A stretch of DNA of 6,749 nucleotides, taken from positions 1-6,749 of the forward strand of contig JAUVLC010000126.1 in the NCBI GenBank assembly GCA_030595925.1. Reading direction: 5' to 3'. How positions within the stretch are numbered: the stretch's first letter is position 1; every line of letters starts with the position of its first letter. Below the pieces are notes generated by a model. That model worked only from the letters and a program-made list of their open reading frames with translations, did not search any database and was not told the origin of the DNA. Source of the stretch: Clostridia bacterium. Its GTDB lineage: Bacteria; CBDUZB01; JAGLHV01. The position numbers were made by a program, and so were the translations under genes. Of this stretch, positions 3,072 to 6,669 are shown one piece after another.

Positions 3072-3116
3072 TTGACAAAACCAAAGAGAGGTGTTAGTTT
3101 TGAAATAGAGGGTGTG
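3072..3116 (+). promoter_or_regulatory. Possible promoter for the riboswitch transcript (-35 box clear, -10 uncertain)
   Basis: A perfect TTGACA lies at 3072-3077, immediately after the HEAT stop codon. No good -10 hexamer stands at 16-18 bases from it (3094-3101 reads TTAGTTTT). A second, weaker option is TTAGTT (3094-3099) with GATAAA from 3116, preceded by TGT. A promoter between the HEAT gene and the aptamer is expected if the riboswitch controls its own transcript, but its exact position cannot be fixed by eye. Confidence 0.25.
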
Positions 3117-3161
3117 ATAAAAAACACATTCTTTTAAGTTACTAAACTTTAAAATGTTTAA

Positions 3162-3243
3162 CTCTGATAAAGGTAAACCCCATGAAATTGGGGGGCACAA
3201 AACTACGGTTCCATGCTTAAAGTGGAAGGCTGAGTTGCCAGGG
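3162..3243 (+). promoter_or_regulatory. GEMM-I riboswitch aptamer (cyclic di-GMP-I)
   Basis: This is the ligand-binding domain of a GEMM/c-di-GMP-I riboswitch. The order of motifs matches the class: P1 strand CTCTG (3162-3166), linker AUAAA, core GGTAAACC (3172-3179), a hairpin CCCCA/TGGGG (3178-3182 with 3189-3193) carrying a GAAA tetraloop (3184-3187), then GGCACAAAACTACGG (3194-3208). A second hairpin TTCCA/TGGAA (3209-3213 with 3223-3227) follows, then GGCTGAGTTGCC (3228-3239), and the P1 partner CAGGG (3239-3243). Aligned from memory to the Vibrio cholerae Vc2 aptamer, G20 is kept (G3172), the G21-C46 pair is kept (G3173-C3198), C22-G45 becomes U3174-A3197 (a compensatory change), and A47 is A3199. 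G at position 20 favours cyclic di-GMP; an A there is typical of the cGAMP-responsive variants. It lies between the HEAT gene and the secreted-protein gene, with a terminator right behind it. Confidence 0.85.
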
Positions 3244-3256
3244 GGAAGATTTGTGG

Positions 3257-3299
3257 AACCGGATTAACCGTGGTAAAAGCGGTATAATCCGGTTTTTTT
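3257..3299 (+). terminator. Intrinsic terminator: riboswitch expression platform
   Basis: AACCGGATTA (3257-3266) pairs perfectly with TAATCCGGTT (3285-3294). The stem extends inward as ACCG (3267-3270) with CGGT (3280-3283), leaving A3284 bulged and a nine-base loop. Seven T residues (3293-3299) follow. The placement 14 bases after the aptamer and 29 bases before the next start codon is that of a transcription-terminating riboswitch. The 5' arm can alternatively pair upstream: TGGAACCG (3254-3261) is complementary to CGGTTCCA (3206-3213) inside the aptamer, which would act as an antiterminator. It would also end transcripts coming from the HEAT gene. Confidence 0.9.
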
Positions 3300-3328
3300 A
3301 TAAGTAATAAATATAAAGGATAACAATA

Positions 3329-3790
3329 ATGAAAAAAATAAGGTTTTTGCTTTTTGTGTTTCTTGTTTTTTCTATGTTGGCTGGAAAGATTTATGCTTCT
3401 TGTTTTCGCCCCCATTTTACTGCGGTTAAGATTGAATCTAATAATTTTTTTCAGCTTACAACAACACATGATTTTTGTTTTCGGGCAAAAGTACAATCTT
3501 TGCCTCTTTATTTGGTTTTTCCGGATATGGATATTAGAGATGAAGGGAACAACCCAATAAAAAATTACAAAAATTTGTTTTTGAATGTTAATTATAATCA
3601 ATATGAAATTTTTAATGTTTGGGGAATTATTAAGAAAAGAAACAGATTTAGAAATGTAAAATTGCGATTGGTAAATTTGAATAAGTTGCAAATTAAAGAT
3701 TCACAAAGGAATGCGAAACATTTTTTTATTGCCTTTCAGGTTTTTGAAGAAGTAGACCTTCCTTTAAAGTATAGCACTTTTTTGTGTTGA
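3329..3790 (+). CDS. Secreted protein of unknown family, riboswitch-controlled
   Basis: The 153-residue product begins MKKIRFLLFVFLVFSMLAG and ends its signal peptide around KIYAS-C25, a good Sec signal with an Ala-x-Ser-like cleavage end. The Cys at +1 hints at a lipoprotein, but Tyr at -4 to -3 makes a poor lipobox. The mature part (about 25-153) is rich in aromatic and basic residues and looks beta-stranded (PLYLVFPDMDI, NLFLNVNYNQYEIFNVWG, VKLRLVNLNKLQI, FFIAFQVFEEV). It has three Cys (25, 50, 153), the last being the final residue. I do not recognise the family. AAAGGA at 3315-3320, 8 bases before the ATG, supports the start. It is the only gene immediately behind the cyclic di-GMP riboswitch and terminator, so its level should follow cyclic di-GMP. 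A role at the cell surface or in adhesion is inference from that control and from secretion. Confidence 0.8.
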   Translation: MKKIRFLLFVFLVFSMLAGKIYASCFRPHFTAVKIESNNFFQLTTTHDFCFRAKVQSLPLYLVFPDMDIRDEGNNPIKNYKNLFLNVNYNQYEIFNVWGIIKKRNRFRNVKLRLVNLNKLQIKDSQRNAKHFFIAFQVFEEVDLPLKYSTFLC

Positions 3791-3942: not shown

Positions 3943-4122
3943 ATGAATTTACGAATAGTTTTTGAACCGTTGGCAGATGGAGGTTTTGTGGTTTCCTGTC
4001 CGGATCTTCCGGGTTGTTCGGCACATGGGAAAACTTTTAACGATGCATTAATAAAAATAAAGGAAGTTATTCAGGAATATCTTCAATATAAAGTGCAGAA
4101 TAAATCTGTTCTCTTGAATTAG
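3943..4122 (+). CDS. HicB-like antitoxin (short, orphan)
   Basis: This small gene encodes 59 residues. The sequence MNLRIVFEPLADGGFVVSCP followed by DLPGCSAHGKTFNDALIKIK has the hallmarks of the HicB/UPF0150 partial RNase-H fold: a first strand, a D-G-G-F/Y-V turn, the C-P-D-L-P-G-C motif, then G-x-T-x-x-D-A and a helix I-x-E-x-I-x-x-Y-L. HicB antitoxins bind the HicA mRNA interferase and often carry a C-terminal DNA-binding domain; this one ends after the core fold, so it resembles the short stand-alone version. GGAGG (3932-3936), 6 bases before the ATG, supports the start. No hicA-like gene (a short dsRBD-like ORF with a G-S-H motif) is visible within 150 bases on either side, so it appears to be an orphan. 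Its function as an antitoxin is therefore uncertain; the family call is firm. Confidence 0.85.
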   Translation: MNLRIVFEPLADGGFVVSCPDLPGCSAHGKTFNDALIKIKEVIQEYLQYKVQNKSVLLN

Positions 4123-4182: not shown

Positions 4183-5028
4183 ATGTCATTACTGTGTCCG
4201 GGTTTTCTATCTAATAGAGCGATAAAATTGAGATGTGCAAGCTATATTGCTCTTTTTTTGGTAATAATTTTGATTTCAGAAACGGGAGCGGAACTATCTA
4301 ATGATTTGAAAAAGCATAATATTGAGAGTCCTCCTTTTGATTCGTTGGATTTGATTTCTTGTTTTTTTTCTAATTTATTACCGGTTGAGACCAAAGTAGA
4401 AAACGATTGTACTCCTCCTCTTGCTCCGGGAAAACCTGCGTTTTATTCCAGCCTTTTAAGCAATACTTACATAATATTTTGGCATTGTTCCCTGGATATC
4501 GAATCCGGGGTTGTTTGCTATGAATTACAGGAAAAAAACGGTATTTCATCGGACTGGAGAAAAATAAATGACAATATTTCTGCTGTTTTAAGCTGCTATT
4601 CAATTATAGGCAGGGTACCGGGGCATTATTATTATCGGGTACGGGCTAAAAATGCAGTTGGTTTATGGAGTGAATGGTCTTTAGTTTCTAAAAAAACAAG
4701 TATTAATTTTCCGGATAAGATAATTACCCGGGTTTCTAATTTTCCTAATCCGATAAATTCAAAAGAAGGAAATACTATTATTACTTATTTTCTTAATCAG
4801 GATGCAGAAATAACCATAACTATTTATGATTTGATGGGATATGAAATTAAAATATGGTCTTTTGGTGCAGGGGAAGAAGGGGGCAACCAGGGAATAAATA
4901 ATATTGTTTGGGATTGTAAGGATGATAGAGGAGATAAAATATTTAAAGGATGTTATCTTTGTCGGATTAGAGCAAAATTTAACCAAAAAGTAACAATAGT
5001 TACGAGAAAAATCGGAGTAATTTATTGA
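4183..5028 (+). CDS. Secreted fibronectin III / FlgD-Ig-like domain protein
   Basis: The 281-residue protein has an N-terminal hydrophobic export segment (about 18-34, SYIALFLVIILIS). A short linker follows, then a fibronectin type III domain (about 78-172) with the P-P-x-A-P-x-K-P opening, YYYRVRAKNAVGLWSEWS at its end, and conserved Trp100 and Tyr113. The C-terminal domain (about 182-281) is FlgD Ig-like, as used in secreted proteins of FCB and candidate-phylum bacteria. Its features are SNFPNPINSKEGNTIITYFL, ITIYDLMGYEI, VWDCKDDRGDKIFKGCYLCRI. The usual W-D-G is W-D-C here. Such domains mediate anchoring or sorting at the cell surface; no enzyme is present. Ten Cys is high for an exported protein of this size. 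The start has AGGGG (4171-4175) at a 7-base distance; upstream in-frame stops at 4159 and 4165 exclude a longer form. Confidence 0.85.
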   Translation: MSLLCPGFLSNRAIKLRCASYIALFLVIILISETGAELSNDLKKHNIESPPFDSLDLISCFFSNLLPVETKVENDCTPPLAPGKPAFYSSLLSNTYIIFWHCSLDIESGVVCYELQEKNGISSDWRKINDNISAVLSCYSIIGRVPGHYYYRVRAKNAVGLWSEWSLVSKKTSINFPDKIITRVSNFPNPINSKEGNTIITYFLNQDAEITITIYDLMGYEIKIWSFGAGEEGGNQGINNIVWDCKDDRGDKIFKGCYLCRIRAKFNQKVTIVTRKIGVIY

Positions 5029-5184: not shown

Positions 5185-6669
5185 ATGAATAAAAAGAAAA
5201 AAATTATTTTTATTGGTTGTTTTGTTTTTTACGGTATTCTTCAACCGATATTTTGTGCAGCTGAAAAGGAAGGTACAACTGCAGGAATTATTTTAAAAGA
5301 AGAAATAGGTGTCCGTCAAATGGGTATGGGCGGAGCACAGGTGGCTGTAGCAGGTGATGTGAATACCCTTTATTATAATCCTGCCGGATTAGCTGATATT
5401 GGACAAGCGGAAATAAGCACGATGTACATAGATGGATTGGCAGATGTAATTTATGGTTCTATAGGATATGTCCACCCATTAAAAATTAGTTCCGATTTAA
5501 AAGACAAAAAAAAAGAAAGGGAGAGTAAATACGGAACTGTGGGAATAGGGATGATTACTTTGCAGGGTGGAGAAATAGAAATAAATTATTTAGACGGAAC
5601 TTCGGAAAAGAGAATAGTACAAGCGGATTATGTTTTAACCTTAGGATATGGAAGAGAAATTAAAAAAGTACTGTTGGGAGTAAATCTTAAAACAATTTAT
5701 ACTACTTTGATAGAAGAATATAGTGCTTATGCTTTTGCCTTAGATATGGGTGGAATTTATAGGTTTCCTTATGAGAAGTTGAAAGGATTAAGGGTTGGCG
5801 TTGTTTTGCAAAACTTAGGTACGGAAATAAAATATAAGGAAGAGGGAGATCCATTGCCTTTAACTATAAAAATGGGTGCTGCTTATGAAAAAAGGTTTAA
5901 CCGGATTCATTATGTACAGGGAGCGGTAGATGTGGTAAAAAGTATTGACAGTCAAATAAGGGAAAACATAGGGGTGGAATATATATTTAAAGATATGTTG
6001 GCCGGAAGAGTAGGAACCAGAATGGAGTATGATTTGGGTTTAATGACTTATGGTATAGGGCTATATATCAATAAAGTGAAATTAGATTATGCCTGGATGT
6101 ATGGAGAAGAATGGGATAGTCAACATCGAATTTCACTTTCCTTTCAATTTTCCGGCCGTTCAATGAAAAAGAAAAGAAAAGTAAAAAAAGAAAAAATAAA
6201 GACTAAAATGGCTATAGAAAAGGTCCGGTTAGGTATGGATTTTTTTATGAGAAAAGAATGGGTAAAAGCATTGGAAGTATGGGAAGGAATATTAGAGAAA
6301 AATCCAAAACATGAATTAGCTCAAAATTATGTGAGTAAGACAAAAGAAAGATTGAATAAAGTAATAAAAAAATATTGTGATAAAGCAAAACATTATTATG
6401 AAAAAAAACAATGGTTAAAAGCTTCTCAATTATGGACAAGGGCATGGGAAATATCCGGGAAAAAAGAAAAAAGAGCAAAAGAAGGAATAGAAAAGATAGA
6501 AAGAGAAATAAAATTTATGTTTGATTCGGGAGAGAAATTTTATATGAAAGGTAAATATGATGAATCTCTCAGGCAATGGCAGGAGATTAACAACAGATAT
6601 CCGAACTATCTAGTGTGCTGTCTCATAAATCCCTTGACATTTGAATATTTATTTTGTATAACATTATGA
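5185..6669 (+). CDS. PorV/PorQ-family outer-membrane barrel fused to TPRs, 3' end cut by an IS
   Basis: The 494 codons encode a signal peptide (1-25, ending FCAAE), then a PorV/PorQ (UPF0164)-type barrel (about 28-325). The barrel opens with the family signature VRQMGMGGAQVAVAGDVNTL and YYNPAGLADI, and its strands end at RISLSFQFSG. A Lys-rich linker (327-345) leads to tetratricopeptide repeats. Repeat 1 starts at about 347 (MRKEWVKALEVWEGILEKNP), repeat 2 at about 394 (YYEKKQWLKASQLWTRAWEI) and repeat 3 at about 445 (YMKGKYDESLRQWQEINNRY). PorV-like proteins shuttle or anchor secreted cargo at the outer membrane in type IX-type systems; the TPR part would sit in the periplasm. The native sequence ends at Leu476 (codon 6610-6612). 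The last 18 residues (VCC ... ITL) are encoded by the left end of an IS630-family element, so the gene is truncated in repeat 3 or beyond. Shine-Dalgarno is weak (GGGA, 4 bases before the ATG). A lone TATAAT at 5108-5113 is a possible -10. Confidence 0.85.
   Translation: MNKKKKIIFIGCFVFYGILQPIFCAAEKEGTTAGIILKEEIGVRQMGMGGAQVAVAGDVNTLYYNPAGLADIGQAEISTMYIDGLADVIYGSIGYVHPLKISSDLKDKKKERESKYGTVGIGMITLQGGEIEINYLDGTSEKRIVQADYVLTLGYGREIKKVLLGVNLKTIYTTLIEEYSAYAFALDMGGIYRFPYEKLKGLRVGVVLQNLGTEIKYKEEGDPLPLTIKMGAAYEKRFNRIHYVQGAVDVVKSIDSQIRENIGVEYIFKDMLAGRVGTRMEYDLGLMTYGIGLYINKVKLDYAWMYGEEWDSQHRISLSFQFSGRSMKKKRKVKKEKIKTKMAIEKVRLGMDFFMRKEWVKALEVWEGILEKNPKHELAQNYVSKTKERLNKVIKKYCDKAKHYYEKKQWLKASQLWTRAWEISGKKEKRAKEGIEKIEREIKFMFDSGEKFYMKGKYDESLRQWQEINNRYPNYLVCCLINPLTFEYLFCITL
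6634..6662 (+). promoter_or_regulatory. Promoter of the IS630 transposase
   Basis: A perfect TTGACA (6634-6639) and TATAAC (6657-6662) are separated by exactly 17 bases, the best promoter in the window. The start point would fall near 6668-6670, at or next to the transposase ATG at 6670, implying a leaderless message. Confidence 0.65.

Follow-up and report, generated by a model that had tools for sequence, protein, structure and literature searches.

A probable c-di-GMP OFF switch and CRP-type operator ahead of an orphan secreted-protein gene in a Clostridia bacterium

The window, i.e., the whole 6,749-nt stretch of DNA analyzed here, is the entire contig G000:C193 of a 2.6 Mb genome that is 97% complete. 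Its region 3073-3299 is likely a two-input leader in which a c-di-GMP OFF switch and a CRP-type operator would jointly control the gene of a secreted protein. In the proposed mechanism, a sigma-70-type promoter would fire a transcript that carries the CRP-type operator in its first bases, then a c-di-GMP-I aptamer and then an intrinsic terminator. When c-di-GMP is absent, the 5' strand of P3 (3202-3213) would pair with the emerging 5' arm of the terminator, with AT2 (3254-3261) first and with AT1 (3266-3274) afterwards. Such pairing would disrupt the aptamer as well as impede the terminator, and the gene at 3329 would be transcribed. With c-di-GMP present, the P3 strand would be kept by the aptamer, the terminator would form and transcription would halt. 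A CRP-family protein bound at ≈+14 would serve as a second check, most simply by repression through a block of the polymerase.

Judged by its sequence, the aptamer at 3162-3242 of the forward strand is a genuine c-di-GMP-I (GEMM-I) riboswitch. The sequence-only reading had proposed such an element, to be checked with the Rfam covariance model RF01051. The search (cmscan, Rfam 15) produced a significant match of 57.9 bits (E-value 1.1e-9, model positions 1-87 of 87) compared to the gathering cut-off of 35 bits, and this was the sole RNA match of the window at the gathering threshold. The intact motif order was also where that reading had placed it: GGUAAACC, the P2 hairpin with its GNRA cap (GAAA at 3184-3187), GGCACAAAACUACGG, GGCUGAGUUGCC and the closing helix P1 (3162-3166 with 3239-3243). 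The top match was to the general RF01051 model rather than to the c-di-GMP-I subfamilies RF03167 (GGC) and RF03168 (UAU), which belong to the same Rfam clan.

The folding z-score for positions 3150-3303 was -3.7. The U3174-A3197 pair, earlier interpreted as a compensatory replacement of C-G, proved to be just that: of 43 aptamers in the genus, 31 have C-G here, 12 have U-A and none has a mismatch, and the orthologous leader in a sister genome (G002:C2) has C-G where the window has U-A.

Promoter and CRP-type operator

A probable sigma-70-type promoter, P1, is located at 3073-3101 of the forward strand (TTGACA at 3073-3078, a spacer of 17 nt, TAGTTT at 3096-3101). It has a poor -10 box, with 9 of 12 matches overall, and it was absent from the list given by a generic promoter scan of the window. 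The controlled gene belongs to an orphan family with seven leaders, and each of these has a TTGACA-N16/17-TATAnT-like box in the corresponding position. Another -35/-10 pair, downstream of the operator, was considered and rejected as inconsistent across these leaders.

The operator, TGTGATAAAAAACACA at 3113-3128 (recorded without a strand), has one mismatch to TGTGA-N6-TCACA and is centered at ≈+14 from the P1 start. An equally good match was observed in 19 out of 200 shuffles of the window, therefore the single window site taken alone is weak evidence. The strong test is the genome-wide enrichment. Perfect TGTGA-N6-TCACA sites numbered four, one and one in the three genomes of the genus, and three, one and one of them (5/6) fell within c-di-GMP-I leaders; the fourth perfect site of G000, the genome of the window, precedes a PorV-like gene by ≈55 bp. 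The pattern TGTGA-N6-[TA]CACA, with at most one mismatch, was present in 7/7 leaders of the orphan family, where its center was situated 41-48 bp before the aptamer and at ≈+12 to +14.

We detected one Crp-type HTH protein in G000 (L096:1949-2629, minus strand), and it carries a cNMP-binding domain. Its counterpart in G002 shows 92% identity, and in G001 it is found as two contig pieces. Alignment to solved relatives placed TAREIITK in the recognition helix, with the Arg-Glu pair kept; in E. coli CRP, the Arg-Glu of this helix contacts TGTGA. Thus, the genome holds both the TGTGA-N6-TCACA motif and a CRP-family regulator, the two marks of a CRP-type operator. This protein is the candidate for binding to the operator, and the location of the operator past the start site suggests repression as its putative sign.

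The palindrome could have other roles, which we regard as possible but rather unlikely, instead of being the site of a P1 repressor. Its arms are able to form a hairpin of 4-5 bp at the 5' end of the RNA, yet TGTGA was invariant in the seven leaders and compensatory changes were absent, which is the pattern of a protein site. It could also bind an activator of a second promoter, with the CRP center at -41 and TAAAAT (3150-3155) as the -10 box. This box is situated 29 bp beyond the center both in the window and in G002:C2, but no good -10 occurs at that spacing in the remaining five leaders, while P1 is seen in all seven. Repression of P1 from the operator is the simplest reading.

A leader with a similar set of elements is that of Vibrio cholerae gbpA with Vc1, where a CRP site and a GEMM-I element also accompany a secreted surface-type protein gene (PMC4545359). 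There, repression by c-di-GMP is independent of Vc1 (PMC4545359). The window differs from gbpA in having the operator downstream of P1 and in sharing it with all paralogs of the family.

A perfect CRP-type site was observed as well upstream of a 162-nt c-di-GMP-I-like element with an insertion (L097:458-619 in G000:C32, 34 bits). The contig ends before any gene, and a group II intron fragment occupies L097:1-172.

Terminator, antiterminators and direction of control

The intrinsic terminator spans 3257-3299 of the forward strand, with the 5' arm at 3257-3270, the 3' arm at 3280-3294 and the T-run at 3293-3299. Its stem of 14 bp, AACCGGAUUAACCG / CGGU(A)UAAUCCGGUU, has a single bulged A and is followed by seven T. 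The length of the stem agreed with the sequence-only reading, which was wrong, however, in having the terminator follow the aptamer at once: it starts 14 nt past the end of helix P1.

The 5' strand of P3 within the aptamer (ACUACGGUUCCA, 3202-3213, forward strand) could double as the 5' strand of an antiterminator. Its two potential 3' strands, at 3254-3274 of the same strand, overlap the 5' arm of the terminator. AT1 pairs 3202-3210 with 3266-3274 (AACCGUGGU) in 9 bp including one G-U, while AT2 pairs 3206-3213 with 3254-3261 (UGGAACCG) in 8 bp with no imperfection.

Fold energies were computed with the nearest-neighbor model, in which tertiary contacts are left out. For transcripts ending at 3261-3290, the better of the AT2 and AT1 folds beat the ligand-free aptamer by 1.5-4.7 kcal/mol, the gap being that of the best competing fold per length, with the aptamer represented by its secondary structure without ligand; for transcripts whose 3' arm is still incomplete, the predicted advantage was 1.5-4.1 kcal/mol. 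With the 3' arm completed, the terminator and the aptamer coexist at -45.3 kcal/mol compared to -46.9 kcal/mol for the unconstrained fold. By this calculation, the aptamer is compatible with the terminator and incompatible with either AT1 or AT2. The AT1 state leaves the lower half of the terminator stem free.

The AT1 pairing recurred across the genus in 16 leaders, among them the seven that belong to the orphan family. In this set of mutually related sequences, with the 16 strings and the register chosen by us, 84.4% of cells were paired and the covariation score was 0.287. None of 500 shuffles matched this score, and six slid registers reached at most 0.089. The strands paired better with their own partners than with swapped ones (p 0.0015, Watson-Crick pairs). 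For example, we observed CUACGG/CCGUAG, CUGCGG/CCGCAG (in two separate lineages) and CUACAG/CUGUAG.

Since the aptamer coexists with the terminator and not with the antiterminators, a transcriptional OFF switch is the best reading. OFF is the most likely direction of control under the assumption of co-transcriptional competition. The defining features of a Cd1-type OFF switch, an aptamer compatible with its terminator and an antiterminator that excludes the aptamer, were seen in both the energies and the covariation. The Cd1 riboswitch of the Clostridioides difficile flgB leader shares with the window the GEMM-I aptamer, a separate downstream terminator, an antiterminator that destroys the aptamer and the OFF logic (PMC9262584). 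The antiterminator of Cd1, however, employs the aptamer-stabilizing 3' strand A (G147-C87, C148-G86; PMC9262584), whereas that of the window employs the P3 5' strand. The window differs also in the CRP-type operator ahead of the aptamer, in the lineage and in the gene. In reporter tests in C. difficile, the functional class I riboswitches were uniformly OFF and those of class II were ON (PMC6200980).

The same aptamer would work as an ON switch if ligand binding blocked the terminator, as in the pilM or Vc2 logic. Other leaders of this genome (C140, C72:1543, C56, C86 and others) look like pilM-type ON switches: the aptamer 3' end doubles there as the terminator 5' arm, thus the aptamer and the terminator are mutually exclusive. 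In the window, such an overlap with the aptamer 3' strand is absent, as the terminator 5' arm lies outside the aptamer, which ends at 3242-3243, and the coexistence of the two structures is cheap in terms of the energies given above. We consider the ON direction improbable for this leader, while both signs, ON and OFF, seem to occur with class I in this genome. The Geobacter metallireducens pilM riboswitch itself has the same aptamer fold and the ON logic of those other leaders; its ligand is cGAMP and its terminator and aptamer exclude each other, a layout different from that of the window.

We give still less credence to a degenerate or constitutive leader, with an aptamer that binds without exerting control and a strong terminator that just limits expression. 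Indeed, the window has an imperfect AT1, and in the orthologue G002:C2 this helix is weakened (CCGUAA) and AT2 alone is intact. Nevertheless, the 8 bp of AT2 are perfect in both orthologues despite changed flanking bases, and the pairing within the aptamer has been maintained through compensatory changes.

Ligand position and c-di-GMP-I leaders of the genus

The specificity position of the aptamer is G3172, which is Rfam position 11 and the equivalent of Vc2 G20 (PMC9262584). An A at this position would mark a GEMM-Ib (cGAMP) aptamer; we found G in the window and, counting the window, in 39 of the 43 aptamers of the genus. The earlier view that G3172 favors c-di-GMP over cGAMP holds as far as the presence of the G goes, with the reservation that G at position 11 acts as a selectivity factor and is no hard filter (PMC9262584). 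A preference for c-di-GMP is therefore what we infer from sequence, and its binding by this aptamer is putative. A preference for 3',3'-cGAMP, or promiscuity, for which one may cite this loose selectivity and the A at position 11 in four leaders of the genus, is very unlikely given the G shared by the window with most aptamers of the genus and the GGDEF proteins encoded in the genome.

The four leaders with A are G000:C56:6807-6887, G002:C179:3265-3345, G001:C125:1077-1160 and G001:C323:7260-7343. Apparent orthologues or close relatives of these leaders (G000:C122, G000:C140/C72:1543) retain G, and the difference may reflect a switch of ligand between close relatives.

The number of c-di-GMP-I elements above the cut-off was 18 in G000 (that of the window and 17 others) and about a dozen in each of the two sister genomes; 38 further genomes elsewhere in the domain had no more than two. 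Nine GGDEF domains are encoded in G000, so the c-di-GMP signal is made in this genome. The leaders precede genes of pilin-like, TadE/Flp-like, large secreted repeat, MshEN-type and T9SS-like secreted proteins, and a PilZ gene is close to one leader; the pilin, TadE, MshEN, subtilase and relaxase labels used in this text are our reading of the sequences, while the other gene names are domain matches. We found no paper in the literature that links such riboswitches to this lineage.

Two neighboring pilin-like genes of L061 (G000:C72) have c-di-GMP-I leaders of opposite predicted sign, with the ON layout at 1543-1626 and the OFF layout at 4036-4122. Four near-identical leaders with very high scores, L054:679-765, L055 (G000:C183:3664-3751), L056 (G000:C48:3027-3111) and L080 (G002:C333:321-408), precede unrelated genes, one of which has a C-terminal PDDEXK nuclease match (YhcG/NucS); at one of these loci a relaxase-like gene is located further on. 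This pattern suggests that the leader is mobile or that genes of defence or of mobile elements are under c-di-GMP control. A partial tandem, in which the aptamer 3' end (GGCAGCCGAGCTACCGA) is repeated and the second copy makes the terminator 5' arm, was observed at G000:C178:2822-2901, G001:C31:4467-4608, G002:C336:3944-4085 and G000:C9:5693-5784. Finally, at G000:C122:4965-5047, G001:C125:1077-1160 and G002:C354:4011-4093 the start codon is situated 2 bp past the aptamer with no terminator after it; these three are probable translational GEMM-I switches of a secreted subtilase-like gene.

The controlled gene and its family

The controlled gene (3329-3790, forward strand), preceded by AAAGGA, codes for a protein of 153 aa with an N-terminal signal peptide-like segment. 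We found no relative of this protein in Pfam, NCBIfam or the PDB sequences, in agreement with the initial description of a secreted protein of no recognized family; a match to TetR_C_19 (E-value 0.64) was attributed to chance. Among ≈290 genomes searched, homologs were found in three genomes of a single genus (three in G000 and two in each of G001 and G002). Weak profile matches in G237, G073 and G214 were also judged to be chance: the one in G237 lies in a long reading frame, the longest ORF being a glycosyltransferase-like protein, and those in G073 and G214 lie in short frames with a stop.

The family has the conserved core FCFRxKxQxLPLYLVFPDLDIRDExNKP. The values of dN (0.12) and dS (0.29) between the 153-aa protein and its orthologue, with dN/dS about 0.4, are consistent with moderate constraint on the protein. 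An AlphaFold2 model built with two homologs had a pLDDT of 38.8, too poor for fold searches.

All seven genes of the family are located directly behind a c-di-GMP-I aptamer and start ≈75-90 bp after it. The family can therefore be assigned to the low-c-di-GMP program ahead of biochemistry. Its product is probably made when c-di-GMP is low, in the motile or dispersing state, and any role of the 153-aa protein there is putative. The suggestion that the gene may reveal a new c-di-GMP effector found no support as worded: the RNA is the sensor, the gene product is the controlled target, and nothing points to binding of c-di-GMP by the protein.

The next gene of the transcript is possibly that of a 59-aa protein with a HicB-like antitoxin fold (3943-4122, forward strand; Pfam HicB_lk_antitox, 7e-8), with no HicA partner nearby. 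It is followed on the same strand by genes of a secreted protein with a C-terminal T9SS/FlgD-like sorting-type domain (4183-5028) and of a PorV/PorQ-family outer-membrane protein with a TPR tail (5185-6669; NCBIfam PorV_fam, 150 bits), both conserved as neighbors in the sister genome G002. On the reverse strand, a gene at 495-1592, flanked by genes of a T2SSF protein and a HEAT-repeat protein, codes for a membrane protein with Cache and PAS domains and with neither a kinase nor a GGDEF domain.

The class of the RNA is known; the lasting interest is in an unknown family linked exclusively to this switch and in the CRP-type operator that travels with it. We see an even chance that these small secreted proteins form a family specific to the genus and gated twice by second messengers, through a CRP-family operator between promoter and aptamer and through a c-di-GMP OFF switch with the P3 5' strand as antiterminator, and that c-di-GMP-I ON switches are present on pilin-type genes in the same cell. 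A protein family with no known relatives would be tied to the c-di-GMP circuit. One aptamer class would occur naturally in this genome in both ON and OFF versions, some of them on neighboring pilin-like genes, and the leader in the window would place a CRP-type operator and a riboswitch in series. Together, these variants and this leader may give access in vitro to how one ligand sets opposite outputs.
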